Shown here piece after piece: positions 34,698 through 39,792 of a stretch of DNA of 64,000 nucleotides. The stretch comes from Chryseobacterium sp. (GTDB taxonomy: Bacteria; Bacteroidota; Bacteroidia; Flavobacteriales; Weeksellaceae): positions 558,001 to 622,000 of the forward strand of contig NZ_VOXE01000001.1 in the NCBI RefSeq assembly GCF_008014695.1, written 5' to 3'. The stretch's first letter is position 1. Each line of letters begins with the position of its first letter. A model generated the notes under the pieces. It had not been told where the DNA came from and did no database searches. It saw only the letters and a list, made by a program, of their open reading frames with translations. Made by a program: the position numbers and the translations under genes.

Positions 34698-35672
34698 TCA
34701 GCTGTAAAAAGCTAGATTTTTTAGGATTGCTTGTGATTTCAGTTCAGTTTCCTGCCATTCTTTTTCCGGGATGCTGAGCGTGGTTATTCCACCGCCAACA
34801 AAAAGTTTTGTGGCATTTTTGTAGAATTTTGCACAGCGTAGATTTACAAAATACAGGATATCTTCTTCCTTTTCAATTCTGATGTAACCTGCATAAAATT
34901 CCCTCGGATATCTTTCAAAATTTGCAATTGCTTTTTTACAAAAATCTCTCGGAATTCCGCAAACCGCAGGAGTTGGATGAAGTTCGGAAATTAAATTTTC
35001 AAGATATTTTTCTTCTGTTTTTATTTTAAAATCGGTTCTTAAATGTTTAATATCTCCCGAAATATGATCGTAAGTTTCGGAAGAATGAATTTTTGAATTG
35101 TATTTTTCTAAAATTTTTAAAATATAATCAGAAACAGGTTTTTGTTCCTCGATTTCTTTCTCCGTCCAGTTTTCTTTTACAGGAAGCGTTCCCGCCAAAC
35201 TCATCGTTTCAAAATCCTTATTTTTTTTGTTGAATATTCCGAGAATTTCAGAAAAAGCGCCTATCCAACAAACTCCGTTATCCAAAAAGAAGTAAACAAA
35301 GGCATTTGGATAATTTTCACATAAATTCAAAAAAGTTTGAGACAGATTAATTTTTTTTTCGGGAAATTCGTTTATTTTCTGTCGGGAATAGACCAATTTT
35401 TGGAGCGAATTTTCGTTTATGAAATCGATAACTTCCTTAAGTTTAGTTAAATATTCGTCTTTACTTTCTTGTTTAAAATCAAGGATCTCGCTATTAATTT
35501 CATCAGAAAATTTTTGGTTCTGAAGAATTTCTTCTTTCTTAATTTCAACTATATTCCCTTTAAAATCTAACCTTTCAAATTCATCAAATGAAACAACACT
35601 GATGGCAGTTTCAGAACTATTTCCGTGAACGGAATAATATTTATCGTTAAAAGGCAGTTTGAATAAAATCAT
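34698..35672 (-). CDS. menF: Isochorismate synthase (chorismate-binding enzyme)
   Basis: 324 residues of the chorismate-utilising fold: MSLAGTLPVKENWTEKEIEEQKPV (with the conserved GT and E), SELHPTPAVCGIPRDF and the binding loop FYAGYIRIEKEEDILYFVNLR. Converts chorismate to isochorismate, entry to menaquinone (or a siderophore). menC elsewhere in the window favours menaquinone. The N-terminal part is shorter than in enteric MenF, as usual in this phylum. Confidence 0.88.
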   Translation of the reverse strand: MILFKLPFNDKYYSVHGNSSETAISVVSFDEFERLDFKGNIVEIKKEEILQNQKFSDEINSEILDFKQESKDEYLTKLKEVIDFINENSLQKLVYSRQKINEFPEKKINLSQTFLNLCENYPNAFVYFFLDNGVCWIGAFSEILGIFNKKNKDFETMSLAGTLPVKENWTEKEIEEQKPVSDYILKILEKYNSKIHSSETYDHISGDIKHLRTDFKIKTEEKYLENLISELHPTPAVCGIPRDFCKKAIANFERYPREFYAGYIRIEKEEDILYFVNLRCAKFYKNATKLFVGGGITTLSIPEKEWQETELKSQAILKNLAFYS

Positions 35673-35701: not shown

Positions 35702-36520
35702 CTAAAAAATTTGCATAAAAAAAATTTTGCAGCTTTTTAAAAAAACATAACCAATTCCGAAGAGATAACTGTATTCTGTAAATCCTTTTTCATTGGTTAA
35801 AATATTGAAGTTAAACTCTTTGTTTTTTAATTGCAGTTTGTCCAAAGTATGGGTTTGGACTTCTGCAAACAATTTAATTTTTGGAACAATCCGATATTCT
35901 AACCCGAAAGTGCTTCCAATGCTTACATTTTGGCTTTTAAAATCGGCTAATTGCGAGAGCACATCGTTCTCAGGTGCCAGAAACTGCATTTTGTAGCTGG
36001 TTTTGTTTAAGGAGAATCCCACAAAAGGTGTAATTTTTTTCCAATCGTACTTTACTTTAAAAATTGCCACCCATTCCGAATGTCGGTTGTTGAATTTCTG
36101 AAAAAGCAGGGGTTCGTCTTTTTCCGTAAAATAAAAACCGTTCAAAATCGTATCATCTTTATTGCCGTCCAAATCGAAAGTGGAATTCCAAAGATGGTAT
36201 TGCAAACCTGTGGAAAAGGAAAAATTCGGGAAGAAAAAATACCGCTGAACTTCAATACCAAAACCATATCCAAGCTGTGCTTTATCGCTAAAATCTTTAA
36301 AAAATTCATTTTTTTTAATCCCGGCAAAAGCATTTCCGGAGAAATTCCATTTTTTCTCTTCTTTTATCATTTGCTTTTCGGTCGTTAATTCTTTTTTCTC
36401 TTCCACATACACGGTATCGTGAATAATTTCTTCCTCATAAACAATGATGGTATCGTTTTGAGCTTTTACAGTAATTGAAAAAATAATGAGCAAAAACAAG
36501 AATAGTCGGGAAAAAGGCAT
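35702..36520 (-). CDS. Outer-membrane beta-barrel protein of the sigma islet
   Basis: 272 residues: signal peptide (LFLFLLIIFSITVKAQ), an acidic periplasmic stretch with TIIVYEEEIIHDTVYVEE, then strand-rich sequence (GNAFAGIKKNEFF, FFFPNFSFSTGLQYHLW, ITPFVGFSLNKTSYKMQF, VSIGSTFGLEYRIVPKIKLFAEVQTH) ending YLFGIGYVF. The last 13 residues (LKSCKIFFMQIF) follow two long T runs and may reflect a slipped frame. Starts 1 base after the sigma gene stop, so surely co-transcribed. Family not recognised. Confidence 0.75.
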   Translation of the reverse strand: MPFSRLFLFLLIIFSITVKAQNDTIIVYEEEIIHDTVYVEEKKELTTEKQMIKEEKKWNFSGNAFAGIKKNEFFKDFSDKAQLGYGFGIEVQRYFFFPNFSFSTGLQYHLWNSTFDLDGNKDDTILNGFYFTEKDEPLLFQKFNNRHSEWVAIFKVKYDWKKITPFVGFSLNKTSYKMQFLAPENDVLSQLADFKSQNVSIGSTFGLEYRIVPKIKLFAEVQTHTLDKLQLKNKEFNFNILTNEKGFTEYSYLFGIGYVFLKSCKIFFMQIF

Positions 36521-36521
36521 G

Positions 36522-37652
36522 TTATTTATTTTTTTTGATGAAAATGGTTTCCCGTTTAATGATTTTTTTCACGATGATCACTTTGTTTCTTTGTTTGGCT
36601 TGCATGGTATCTGAAATTGGAATAATTTCAACAGCTTTTTCTTGATCAGAAAATGGGCTCGCTGCAAATAAAGTGTTTTGTGTAGGTTCTTTACTGGGAA
36701 CCTTTTCTGCAATTTTTACAGATTTTTTGGCAGGGGTTTCTGTAATGTCAAAATTTTCAGAAGTTTTTATTTCTGCAATTTCAGAAGGAAATTTTTCATT
36801 TATTTGCTTAGCAGGTTTGATGTCATTCTCTATTTTCACCGGAGCATTAACTGTCGTTTTCGTGGATTGAGTATTTATTTTATTAAAAAAGAAAAGGGAA
36901 GAAAAAACGGTGAAGATTAACACTAGAAATGCAACGGCTTTTATCGAAGGTTTTTGTTGGTGTTTTTTTACTTCGTAAGGGATATTTCCAAAATTTTCAG
37001 ATAAAGTTGGTCTTTGAGGATGGATCCTTAAAGCTGAAAGTTTGTTTCGATACATTTGCGCCCAAACTAAATTTCCGAAACCTAAAAATACAAGTAGCAA
37101 AACTCCTTTTTTTCGTCTTTTTTGTTCTGTAGAAGAAGACCTACTTTCCAAAAGATAATGCCGGATCGATTTTTTGGCACGTAAAAGATGAGATTTTGAA
37201 GTGTTGAGATTAATGTCAAGGTGTTTACAAATATCGGAATGGCTGTAATGGTCGATAAAATACATATTGAAAACCGACTTTTGCAGAAAAGGAAGCTGAT
37301 CGATGGAAGCCAATAATTCTTCCGAAGAAAAATCATACGCCAAAACCTCGTTCTGTTCAAAAGCAGTAGAATTATTATCCGACATAGCTGGAATTTGTTG
37401 AGTTTCTATAGACACAAATTGGGTTTTTGCAGTTTTTTTTAAAAATTGCAAGGCATTATTAATCACGATTTTCTTCAGCCAACCCGAAATGTTTTTGTCA
37501 TCTTTCAGTTGATGCACATTTTGAATAGCGGTAATAAAACTCTCCTGAAGAATATCTTCCGCTGCATAAACATCGGCAACATACCTTCGGCAAACCCCCA
37601 AAAGTTTGGGTGATAATTGCGTGTAAATATGGTTCCAGTCTTTGTTTTGCAC
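36522..37652 (-). CDS. ECF-type sigma factor fused to a transmembrane anti-sigma-like tail
   Basis: 376 residues, about twice a normal ECF sigma factor. Sigma-2 (about 8-75: YVADVYAAEDILQESFITAIQN, WLKKIVINNALQFLKK) and sigma-4 (about 112-165: LPFLQKSVFNMYFIDHYSHSDI, NTSKSHLLRAKKSIRHYL) are complete. Then follow a hydrophobic stretch (183-201), YRNKLSALRIHPQ...LSENFG, a clear helix at 238-256 (KAVAFLVLIFTVFSSLFFF) and a ~120-residue polar Lys/Thr/Pro-rich tail. The short soluble box before the helix recalls the N-terminal part of Bacteroidota anti-sigma factors, usually a separate gene. The protein may be membrane-held and self-inhibited. Sits between a lipoprotein gene (3 bases) and a barrel gene (1 base). 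Confidence 0.82.
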   Translation of the reverse strand: MQNKDWNHIYTQLSPKLLGVCRRYVADVYAAEDILQESFITAIQNVHQLKDDKNISGWLKKIVINNALQFLKKTAKTQFVSIETQQIPAMSDNNSTAFEQNEVLAYDFSSEELLASIDQLPFLQKSVFNMYFIDHYSHSDICKHLDINLNTSKSHLLRAKKSIRHYLLESRSSSTEQKRRKKGVLLLVFLGFGNLVWAQMYRNKLSALRIHPQRPTLSENFGNIPYEVKKHQQKPSIKAVAFLVLIFTVFSSLFFFNKINTQSTKTTVNAPVKIENDIKPAKQINEKFPSEIAEIKTSENFDITETPAKKSVKIAEKVPSKEPTQNTLFAASPFSDQEKAVEIIPISDTMQAKQRNKVIIVKKIIKRETIFIKKNK

Positions 37653-37655
37653 TTT

Positions 37656-38663
37656 TTAGTTTTGGACGACGAAAATCGAACGAAATGAACCATTTGGAAT
37701 AGAAGTTCCTGTAATACTTTGGGTAATAACATTATTTATGTACACTTTATAAGAATTTTGTTTTGTCTTAATCAAATAAACATTGTTATTAAGTACAAAC
37801 ATATCAGAAATCACATAATAATCATTATCAACAGGTACAATTATGTGATTATTATTTTTATAATAATAATTATTCAAATATGATGATGAAATATACAGAT
37901 CATTCGTGTATTTATCAGTAATAAACTTTCCTTCTGATAAATTTGGGTTTGAAATTGTATCTACAAAATAGTTAACATTTGTATTTGTATTGTTATAATA
38001 AAATGTACTGTTTGGACCTGTTGTTTCATGTTTATTATATAAAACCAATACTCCTTGATTTGTCTTTACAAAACCATGCATCCAACTTGCATTGACCGGG
38101 AAAAATGTATTGTCTATAAAATAACCCACCGGAAAAGAACTGCTTATATAGACATGATTGTCGAAATAGGCAATTTCATCAGGAAAAACTGGGTTGGAGT
38201 TTTGGTACACAATATTTTTTACATTATTTTTCCAAAAACAAAGTTCATATTGTAAAGCAGGAGGGGCTGTTACATTTTTAAACATACCTGTAATATATGT
38301 TTCATCATTACTAACCGTAAAATCGGTAATAGTATAATTTGATCCAGCAGCAATGTTTAAATACTGTTCAATATCATATTTTACGTTATTCTTCCAAAAA
38401 AAAGATTTTCCGTTTTGGTATGAGGAACCAAAGACAAAAATATTATTATTTTCTATTATTATTTTTGAGAGAGAGATGTTATCGCCAAATGGTAACACAT
38501 GCTTCACATTATTTTTCCAATAACATGCTTGATTAAATTCAGATCCGGCAACATACACATCCACAGAATTCATCAATTTTTTCTCGTCTGGTAAAACTTC
38601 ATCTCTGGAACAAGACGAAAGAAATAAGAGTAAAAAAGCAAAGGGCAAAAAAAGCGTTTTCAT
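37656..38663 (-). CDS. WKNN-repeat lipoprotein of the sigma islet
   Basis: 335 residues. Lipoprotein signal with lipobox LSSC (Cys18). Degenerate repeats of about 50 residues carry the sequence [Y/F]WKNNVK (ACYWKNNVKHVL, SFFWKNNVKYDI, LCFWKNNVKNIV) and strands such as NIFVFGSS, HVYISSS, DLYISSS and NVYLIK, suggesting a beta-propeller-like fold. Very rich in Asn and Tyr. Probably exposed at the outer membrane. First gene of the islet, 3 bases before the sigma gene. Related Bacteroidota proteins have WKNG repeats (from memory); function unknown. Confidence 0.78.
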   Translation of the reverse strand: MKTLFLPFAFLLLFLSSCSRDEVLPDEKKLMNSVDVYVAGSEFNQACYWKNNVKHVLPFGDNISLSKIIIENNNIFVFGSSYQNGKSFFWKNNVKYDIEQYLNIAAGSNYTITDFTVSNDETYITGMFKNVTAPPALQYELCFWKNNVKNIVYQNSNPVFPDEIAYFDNHVYISSSFPVGYFIDNTFFPVNASWMHGFVKTNQGVLVLYNKHETTGPNSTFYYNNTNTNVNYFVDTISNPNLSEGKFITDKYTNDLYISSSYLNNYYYKNNNHIIVPVDNDYYVISDMFVLNNNVYLIKTKQNSYKVYINNVITQSITGTSIPNGSFRSIFVVQN

Positions 38664-38722
38664 ACAAATTAGTTTTGGTTCTTACTTATAAGATTCAAAA
38701 AAGTAAAAAAGTTGCAGAAAAA

Positions 38723-38771: not shown

Positions 38772-39206
38772 TCAAGATAACTTATTGCGCGGAATGATAT
38801 TGTTGGTCATTGTGGTATGATTGATCAGGCTGCCCTTTTCGTCCCGGATTTCTATCTCAGAAACGTGCATTGTATTACCTCTTCTGATGAATCTGGCGGT
38901 TCCGGTTACCATTCCGTGGCGTTTGCTTTTCAGGTGGTTGGAGTTGATGTTTGTTCCCACGGGAACCACTTTTTCAGCATCCACGCTGATGTATGAAAGA
39001 CACGAACCCAAAGTTTCGGCCAAAACACAGCTTGCACCGCCGTGAAGAATTCCGTAAGGCTGATGCACTTTCGGCGTTACAGGCATCGTTGCGGTAAGGG
39101 TTTCCTCTGTAACATCTGTGAAAATAATATTGAGCGTTTTTCCGAGGGTTTCTTCACCCCAGTTATTCAGCATTTCAAGAATTTCTCTTTTTTTTGAATT
39201 ATCCAT
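38772..39206 (-). CDS. PaaI-type hotdog thioesterase (possible DHNA-CoA hydrolase)
   Basis: 144 residues from MDNSKKREILEML at 39206; the longer frame to 39395 lies inside the upstream acyltransferase gene. The hotdog motif PYGILHGGASCVLAETLGS (with the active-site Glu) and SNHLKSKRHGMVTGTARFIRRG are typical of PaaI/EntH enzymes. In Bacteroidota such genes often stand next to menF and act on 1,4-dihydroxy-2-naphthoyl-CoA; here the sigma islet lies between them. Substrate assignment is inference. Confidence 0.85.
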   Translation of the reverse strand: MDNSKKREILEMLNNWGEETLGKTLNIIFTDVTEETLTATMPVTPKVHQPYGILHGGASCVLAETLGSCLSYISVDAEKVVPVGTNINSNHLKSKRHGMVTGTARFIRRGNTMHVSEIEIRDEKGSLINHTTMTNNIIPRNKLS

Positions 39207-39225
39207 TTTTAGTACGGGTGTATAT

Positions 39226-39792
39226 CTAATAAATTTTGGGATTCCAGTTTTCAGGATTTTTTGGAGTAATTTTTTTGTAATATTCCTGCATTTCCTCCAT
39301 AATGCTTTCAAAACTGCGGGTTTCCAGATCGTGAACAGTGATGATTTTGCCCAAATAAATGATTTTGTGTTTAAAGTCCCCGGCAGCGACCACAATCGGG
39401 ACTTTTGCTGCCAAAGCCATATGGTAGAAACCTTTCCGCCATTTCGGAACCCAGCTTCTTGTTCCTTCCGGCGTAATTACCAGACTGAAACTGTCTTTCT
39501 TAAATTCATCCACTACAAATTTAATGAGGTCGTTTTTCTGGCTTCTGTCAATACCAATACCGCCCAAAGCTCTGACTATGGAACCGTACCAAGCTTTGGT
39601 GTGTTCGTCTTTAATAATAATTTTCAACGGTTTATCCAGCGCCCAGTACGCCAGATTTCCAAGGAGATATTCCTGATTGGAAGTGTGTGGCGCCACAACC
39701 AGAATACAGCGGTCCAGATTATTCACATCGCCTTCCAATACAATCTTCCAGCCCACAATCCACATCATCAATTTCCCGATCAGTTTCTTCAT
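39226..39792 (-). CDS. Lysophospholipid-type acyltransferase
   Basis: About 188 residues from MKKLIGKLMMWIVGWK at 39792; the longer frame begins with TTG at 39813, inside the upstream terminator. PlsC-like fold: VVAPHTSNQEYLLGN in place of the HX4D motif (here H-X4-E), SLVITPEGTRSWVPKWRKGFYHMA (EGTR motif) and VPIVVAAGDF. Probably acylates a lysophospholipid at the membrane. The Asp-to-Glu change at the catalytic dyad is notable. 19 bases before the thioesterase gene. Confidence 0.85.
   Translation of the reverse strand: MKKLIGKLMMWIVGWKIVLEGDVNNLDRCILVVAPHTSNQEYLLGNLAYWALDKPLKIIIKDEHTKAWYGSIVRALGGIGIDRSQKNDLIKFVVDEFKKDSFSLVITPEGTRSWVPKWRKGFYHMALAAKVPIVVAAGDFKHKIIYLGKIITVHDLETRSFESIMEEMQEYYKKITPKNPENWNPKIY

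Follow-up and report, generated by a model that had tools for sequence, protein, structure and literature searches.

In a 64,000 nt stretch of Chryseobacterium sp. DNA (RefSeq assembly GCF_008014695.1, contig NZ_VOXE01000001.1, positions 558,001 to 622,000 of the forward strand), called the window here, three genes on the minus strand form a cassette for a lipoprotein, a sigma factor of the extracytoplasmic function (ECF) type fused to a predicted membrane-anchored tail, and a candidate outer-membrane barrel. Comparison of sequences established that the fusion is conserved, that the three genes occur together, that a particular promoter sequence is linked to them and that the cassette was lost repeatedly. 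We consider it probable that the cassette is a self-contained cell-surface signalling system, in which the sigma factor is held back, is freed by an event at the surface and then regulates its own operon. A preliminary description, made from the letters of the window without database searches, had pointed to such a unit of three tightly packed genes between menF and a PaaI-type thioesterase gene. The coordinates agreed with this, with gaps of 3 bases between the lipoprotein and sigma genes and of 1 base between the sigma gene and the barrel candidate, and both flanking genes were found in the window (Table 1).

The fusion was present as one frame in many genomes, which ruled out the frameshift artefact that had been named as a possible source of it. 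When 320 genomes of the family were searched with the tail alone, 90 genomes carried the tail in a single open frame of 353-412 aa, and the sigma domain preceded the tail in all 90 loci that were read (89 genomes, G077 twice, window excluded). The search matched 94 genomes in all; G251, G254, G255 and G266, with a partial tail and frames of 825 or 133 aa, were not counted, and additional broken copies in G077 were set aside. By genus group, the fused genomes were 1/36 in the window's genus (g1), 86/173 in Chryseobacterium (g26), 2/2 in g27 and 1/1 in g40. Of the 87 tail-negative g26 genomes, 80 were also searched with a profile, which yielded six partial matches, all of them weak (E 6e-5 or worse) and none close to menF. 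G077 (L096; C2, also C1:545436 and C2:2665, 25598; 27.8 kb contig) held several copies of the cassette, one inverted and another whose sigma frame is broken, and the extra copies are either a real duplication or an assembly artefact.

The fusion was also found outside the family. A scan of named genomes kept 80 loci, of which 67 were fused, 12 had a free sigma factor called and one (L251) had no sigma gene called by the script. The fused loci comprised 56 of Chryseobacterium type (one titled only Weeksellaceae), nine from Bacteroidales, one from a Flavobacteriales metagenome-assembled genome (MAG) and one from a MAG titled Limnohabitans. A class-wide draw supplied two further fused members. 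In a class-wide profile search of 395 genomes, with at most five candidates scored per genome, full-length fused proteins were seen among the matches listed only in G000, G092, G436 and G503, which is a lower bound. The 25 fused rows formed one group (support 100/97) in a tree built from 57 sigma domains. Compared to an earlier tree of 68 rows, it had fewer Chryseobacterium rows, L319 and L320 were added, and the nine very divergent free sigma factors L022-L030 (branch 3.1) were left out after the earlier tree had mixed them into the fused group. The notion that sigma and anti-sigma factors are normally encoded separately was true of the free-sigma loci that we saw, whereas fusions are already known in other systems (IutY, ECF48/52/53 and Dma3, see below).

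The sigma regions and the predicted membrane helix of the protein lie in one conserved frame, which supported the proposal of a one-chain sigma factor with a membrane tail. No Pfam family matched residues 170-376 at E values up to 1, and this included FecR/STN domains. The AlphaFold model of the fusion had a mean predicted local distance difference test score (pLDDT) of 69, with a good sigma domain. Within residues 180-376, for which structure prediction had been suggested, a hairpin (consensus QLLVFxGFGGLLWAQTFxSKFSDF) and the helix 235-256 were modelled, and the chain beyond this helix was disordered. The second helix of the hairpin (residues 193-208) reached a fair pLDDT of about 80 and the first (182-189) about 67. 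We compared the hairpin plus membrane helix with the N termini of free anti-sigma factors and obtained a profile score of 26.8 versus 18.8 +/- 0.4 for shuffled sequences that kept the membrane part, none of which (0/60) reached this score. The segment of L319 and L320 resembled anti-sigma factors more clearly, as judged by eye. A second membrane helix at the hydrophobic stretch around residues 182-199 was disfavoured: the summed insertion cost averaged +4.4, compared to -0.8 for helix 235-256 (92 sequences; unweighted by position). Foldseek with the sigma model returned mainly sigma factors as top matches, which says nothing about the tail. The protein stayed below the curated cut-offs of the sigma subfamilies TIGR02985 (91.1 versus 126.4 bits) and NF058625 (GFO_1088/PG0214; 79.9 versus 130 bits).

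Table 1. Features of the cassette and its flanks, in positions of the window.
Feature	Positions	Strand	Remarks and basis
Lipoprotein gene	38663-37656	minus	335 aa; lipobox Cys18; WKNN repeats, beta-propeller
Sigma/anti-sigma-like fusion gene	37652-36522	minus	376 aa; GTG start
Candidate outer-membrane barrel gene	36520-35702	minus	272 aa; signal peptide by eye; weak PF02462
ECF-type promoter candidate TGCAACTTTTTTACTTTTTTGAATCTTA	38689-38716	minus	25 bases ahead of lipoprotein start
Sigma region 2, residues 9-76	37425-37628	minus	PF04542, E 3.3e-13
Sigma region 4, residues 111-162	37167-37322	minus	PF08281, E 2.6e-12
Hydrophobic two-helix hairpin, anti-sigma-like, residues 182-208	37029-37109	minus	model, conservation, profile match to free anti-sigma factors
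Predicted membrane helix, residues 235-256	36885-36950	minus	model and hydrophobicity over 92 sequences
Predicted disordered tether, residues 261-361	36570-36872	minus	pLDDT block means <50; poorly conserved
Basic C-terminal motif, residues 356-376, NKVIIVKKIIKRETIFIKKNK (family consensus KVIVVKKIIQRDTIFVER)	36525-36587	minus	conservation, charge
Acidic double-DT motif, barrel residues 23-44, DTIIVYEEEIIHDTVYVEEKKE	36389-36454	minus	pattern over barrel ORFs
menF	34698-35672		flank on barrel side
Hotdog thioesterase gene (paaI)	38772-39230		flank on lipoprotein side

The cassette was accompanied by a promoter-like block, TGCAACCTTTT-N10-CATCTTA. Allowing up to two substitutions in the first half and one in the second, we found it before 82/92 lipoprotein genes and before 4 of the 24 sigma genes that were preceded by a gap of >60 bases. 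The spacer was 10 bases in all 86 matches, with 5-14 bases allowed. For scanning of genomes we used the form TGCAACNTTTTN11ATCTTA, which had a single match in the window's genome even at one mismatch. The exact form was present in 80/320 genomes; these were 78 of the 90 cassette genomes and 2 of the 230 in which the tail search had found none, and both of the latter matches lay at deletion scars. The reversed pattern, used as a control, matched in 4/320 genomes. Off-cassette matches in G200, G228, G238 and G247 lay near genes that were not recognised as cassette genes. In more distant fused cassettes, the promoter was found with up to three changes ahead of 9/11 (seven from Bacteroidales), while base shuffles predicted 0.4, and the two class-wide fused members had a TGCCACC variant ahead of the cassette. 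The 42 loci with a free sigma factor showed three scattered matches at three changes. Since the matches are nearly confined to cassettes, it is simplest to assume that the fused sigma factor recognises this promoter and acts mostly on its own cassette. The cassette thus looks self-regulated and nearly single-target, and the promoter argues for a self-contained unit more strongly than the preliminary description could know.

We also surveyed gene order at 91 loci (the 90 fetched loci and the window, as called by script). The barrel candidate directly followed the sigma gene in 89/91, the exceptions being one broken barrel frame and one contig end; menF followed in 90/91, and at least one lipoprotein gene was present in 82/91. 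The script called paaI ahead of the cassette in 87/91 loci; the misses were two contig ends, G230, where it was uncalled, and the window itself, where paaI is in fact present. The three genes, whose joint occurrence the preliminary description had proposed to survey, stay together, and all three were found at another site in L237. This is the MAG titled Limnohabitans, a genus of Pseudomonadota, which holds a complete trio of Bacteroidota type; the title probably reflects bin contamination.

The paaI-menF site was occupied by the cassette in 86/173 Chryseobacterium genomes. None of the 35 congeners in the window's genus had the cassette, and paaI adjoined menF in all of them save G010 (L172), with a different 361-aa ORF (open reading frame) in between, and G028, with a 61-aa ORF. 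We read 40 of the 87 cassette-free Chryseobacterium loci, and menF followed paaI in all of them. The 3' end of the barrel gene was retained before menF in 30 of these 40 loci, mostly over 23-68 codons, with a longer and weaker stretch in G193. The scars of G133, G169 and G199 also kept the promoter, and in G169 the first 58 lipoprotein codons ran into the barrel end. From these scars we concluded that repeated losses of the cassette occurred here. No scar was seen in the 35 congeners (0/35), for which loss would be the simpler reading as well. The preliminary description had named an unfused sigma gene in the same place, together with lacking co-occurrence, as evidence against such a signalling unit. 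No sigma gene was found at the site in the 35 congeners and the 40 cassette-free Chryseobacterium loci, and the cassette genes do co-occur.

The lipoprotein had been described by its WKNN repeats. WKNN occurs exactly three times and the remaining repeats are degenerate. Its AlphaFold model was confident (pLDDT 89.4) and showed a beta-propeller fold, with VIA-align Z scores of 18.6-20.5 against propellers that included the BtuG surface lipoproteins. Of the 91 loci, 74 had a single lipoprotein gene, 6 had two, 2 had three and 9 had none. Duplicates diverge fast (29-44% identity to the window's copy), and 7 of the 9 lipoprotein genes that follow another one have their own promoter. The exact promoter was kept in 8/9 genomes with a lipoprotein-less cassette. 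The stretches read at L238-L247 contained no lipoprotein gene. An orphan propeller lipoprotein, L310 (G215:C56, 1044-2072, minus), lies far from a cassette and has the cassette promoter with one mismatch; judged by this promoter it is likely a target in trans. One or two extra small ORFs lay between paaI and the lipoprotein gene in 30 loci (e.g. L095, L100). Of three that were sampled, all small lipoproteins, two resembled PrcB_C below the cut-off (22.5 and 20.6 versus 24 bits) and the third had no PrcB_C match. A second promoter match was located 515-519 bases upstream of the first in G074, G148, G184, G207 and G217. A small lipoprotein of this kind is a possible fourth member of the cassette.

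The sigma protein and the barrel candidate carry opposite charges at the ends that may meet. The double-DT pattern was present in 83/91 barrel ORFs and in 1/923 other ORFs of at least 150 aa. In 99 of 100 sigma/partner pairs the sigma protein ended in a segment of positive net charge, and the N-terminal segment of the partner was net negative in 83/97 and zero in 13/97. The two net charges were negatively correlated (r -0.67, n 99; r -0.57 within the family, n 88). In Bacteroidales (L238-L247), the gene after the fused sigma gene encodes a partner of 231-236 aa, or 277 aa as called, that keeps the double-DT motif.

Several results speak against a signalling system of this layout. The double-DT pattern was missing from 8/91 barrel ORFs, the pairing of the two motifs is judged by pattern and charge, and the charge correlation is uncorrected for relatedness. 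The PF02462 match agreed with the claim of an outer-membrane barrel; it is weak, as the barrel candidates stay below Pfam cut-offs or have no match at all (E 0.0037 for the window's protein). The Bacteroidales partner, as judged by eye, has two hydrophobic stretches and no evident barrel; because it is unlike a plain barrel, the term outer-membrane sensor may not apply throughout the group. On the side of the sigma protein, helix 182-189 was modelled with low confidence, the part of the anti-sigma match before the membrane helix is weak alone and was equalled by 1/60 shuffles, the hhalign probability of this match was only 64%, and the charges flanking the membrane helix favour an N-in orientation only mildly (before > after in 51/92, 23 ties). 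The lipoprotein was missing from 9/91 loci. With regard to the promoter, 12 cassette genomes carry it only in a form with one or two changes, which in G087 and G120 lies ahead of a small extra ORF only, and no promoter was found at L239 and L240 with up to three changes. The tree of 68 rows gave no single fused group, as L022-L030 were placed inside it, and the fused label needs two changes there.

Judged by analogy, the closest known systems would be the Dma proteins of Bacteroides, above all Dma3, and IutY of Pseudomonas putida (ECF243). IutY is described as a single-chain sigma/anti-sigma protein that is cut by Prc and RseP (PMC5411451, PMC8999054), and the signalling domain of FoxA is described to protect FoxR from proteolysis (PMC11637429). 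IutY and the cassette share a sigma factor and a membrane anchor in one chain, the barrel candidate would correspond to the outer-membrane partner of IutY, and release by proteolysis, as in IutY, is the model that we propose. The periplasmic domain in IutY and FecR-type signalling is of the FecR/STN type, which was not matched in the cassette tail. IutY also belongs to a different phylum and has a TonB-dependent receptor as partner, while the cassette partner has 272 aa and matches PF02462 weakly, and no gene of the size of a TonB receptor was present among the cassette neighbours in the window's gene list. According to PMC13088901, Dma proteins run from the cytosol to an outer-membrane barrel, Dma3 has a sigma domain at its N terminus, and the proteins are reported from Bacteroidota only. 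With Dma the cassette would share a signalling line that leads from the outer membrane to the sigma domain by way of a barrel, a disordered tether, a membrane helix and perhaps an anti-sigma segment, and in the cassette the helix and tether are predicted; an N-terminal sigma domain (PF04542 and PF08281 in the cassette) is shared with Dma3. This likeness was judged by the architecture described for these proteins. In Dma the barrel is part of the same chain, whereas the cassette chain ends at residue 376 and the barrel candidate is encoded by the next gene, has its own N-terminal motif and shares its operon with a propeller lipoprotein. As the chain has no barrel of its own, we did not file the cassette as Dma. 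Candidates for one-chain Dma3-like proteins in G667, G723 and G646 (603-629 aa) were rejected, as the frames extend ahead of ordinary sigma genes.

ECF48/52/53 of Actinobacteria are sigma factors with a fused membrane-spanning C-terminal extension that are expected to need cleavage (PMC8999054, PMC5826349); unlike the cassette, they have a zinc-finger anti-sigma domain, another envelope type and no outer-membrane partner. Table 2 of PMC8999054 lists SIO28919.1 from Chryseobacterium scophthalmum as an ECF240 member with an extension. It comes from the same genus, has an extension and may be the same protein as the cassette sigma factor. Beyond this entry, a non-exhaustive literature search gave no description of the cassette arrangement or of its promoter. 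The lipoprotein shares the propeller fold with BtuG-type surface lipoproteins (Z 18.6-20.1) at 7-11% identity, and the shared fold shows no function.

In the proposed mechanism, the anti-sigma-like hairpin would keep the adjoining sigma domain inactive at the inner membrane in the resting state. The sigma chain would cross the membrane once, its disordered tether would span the periplasm, and its basic end VIVVKKIIQRDTIFVER would bind to the barrel at the acidic strand DTVYVYEKVIVYDTIYLEK of the barrel's N terminus. This contact would be broken by a surface event that the barrel, and perhaps also the propeller lipoprotein, senses. The tether would then be trimmed and an intramembrane protease would free the sigma domain; an M50/RseP-like enzyme is a candidate, and the window's genome has one M50 match. 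The freed sigma domain would transcribe its own operon of lipoprotein, sigma and barrel genes, giving positive feedback and a switch of nearly one promoter. Overall, the cassette would be a trans-envelope anti-sigma factor of the Dma type that is split in two, with the sigma factor joined to the inner half.

Two other mechanisms would use the same genes in a different way. The tethered sigma factor may act uncut, so that a surface event alters the contact between hairpin and sigma domain while the protein stays membrane bound. In ECF41 and ECF238 the C-terminal extension is described to act through a change of conformation (PMC8999054), and the genes of the cassette include no evident protease; on the other hand, proteolysis is in better accord with a membrane helix and a long disordered tether, and cleavage occurs in IutY (PMC5411451), which has the most similar layout among studied systems of known mechanism. 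We regard an uncut sigma factor as unlikely. Slightly less doubtful is a central role of the lipoprotein in a switch for surface variation (a binding protein, an S-layer-like or a phage-facing coat), with the barrel as mere clamp or exit route, which would be compatible with the release mechanism. The lipoprotein gene is the first of the operon and is duplicated, its copies have their own promoters and diverge fast, and the cassette is often lost, while 9/91 loci keep the sigma gene without it and none was seen in the L238-L247 stretches.

The remaining explanations concern the origin of the cassette. A frameshift or assembly artefact, or chance neighbourhood, is refuted by the single frame in 90 genomes and the conserved gene order and deserves practically no weight. 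The preliminary description had suggested that the cassette was inserted between menF and paaI, and a recent insertion of a mobile cassette in the window's genome would fit its absence, without scars, from the 35 congeners and the presence of the trio at another site in L237. The other cassette genomes use the same site, however, and 30 of the 40 cassette-free Chryseobacterium loci keep the barrel end, three of them with the promoter. The identities of sigma and menF are correlated (r 0.78, 90 loci; a joint transfer of neighbours could have the same effect), and the window's copy branches outside the main Chryseobacterium group (support 94/92). The shared site and the scars rule out a recent insertion for the family, and for the window's genome it appears improbable.

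In addition to self-contained signalling, we tentatively propose a more specific view, which is rather less certain: the cassette may be a two-piece trans-envelope wire, joined by the pairing of charged beta-strands, that feeds a sigma factor with essentially one target, and may thus be an envelope-triggered, self-amplifying on/off switch that was spread over Bacteroidota together with its promoter and was repeatedly discarded. Here an unusual sigma architecture comes with a promoter that is legible in the genome sequence, and the genus has many named species, so that a single reporter would suffice to test the circuit. As a split counterpart of Dma, the cassette would show if the periplasm must be bridged by a covalent link. 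Gene circuits in Bacteroidota could also use a dedicated sigma factor with about one promoter as a clean component, and the repeated losses with their visible scars are a natural experiment on when it pays to retain such a switch.

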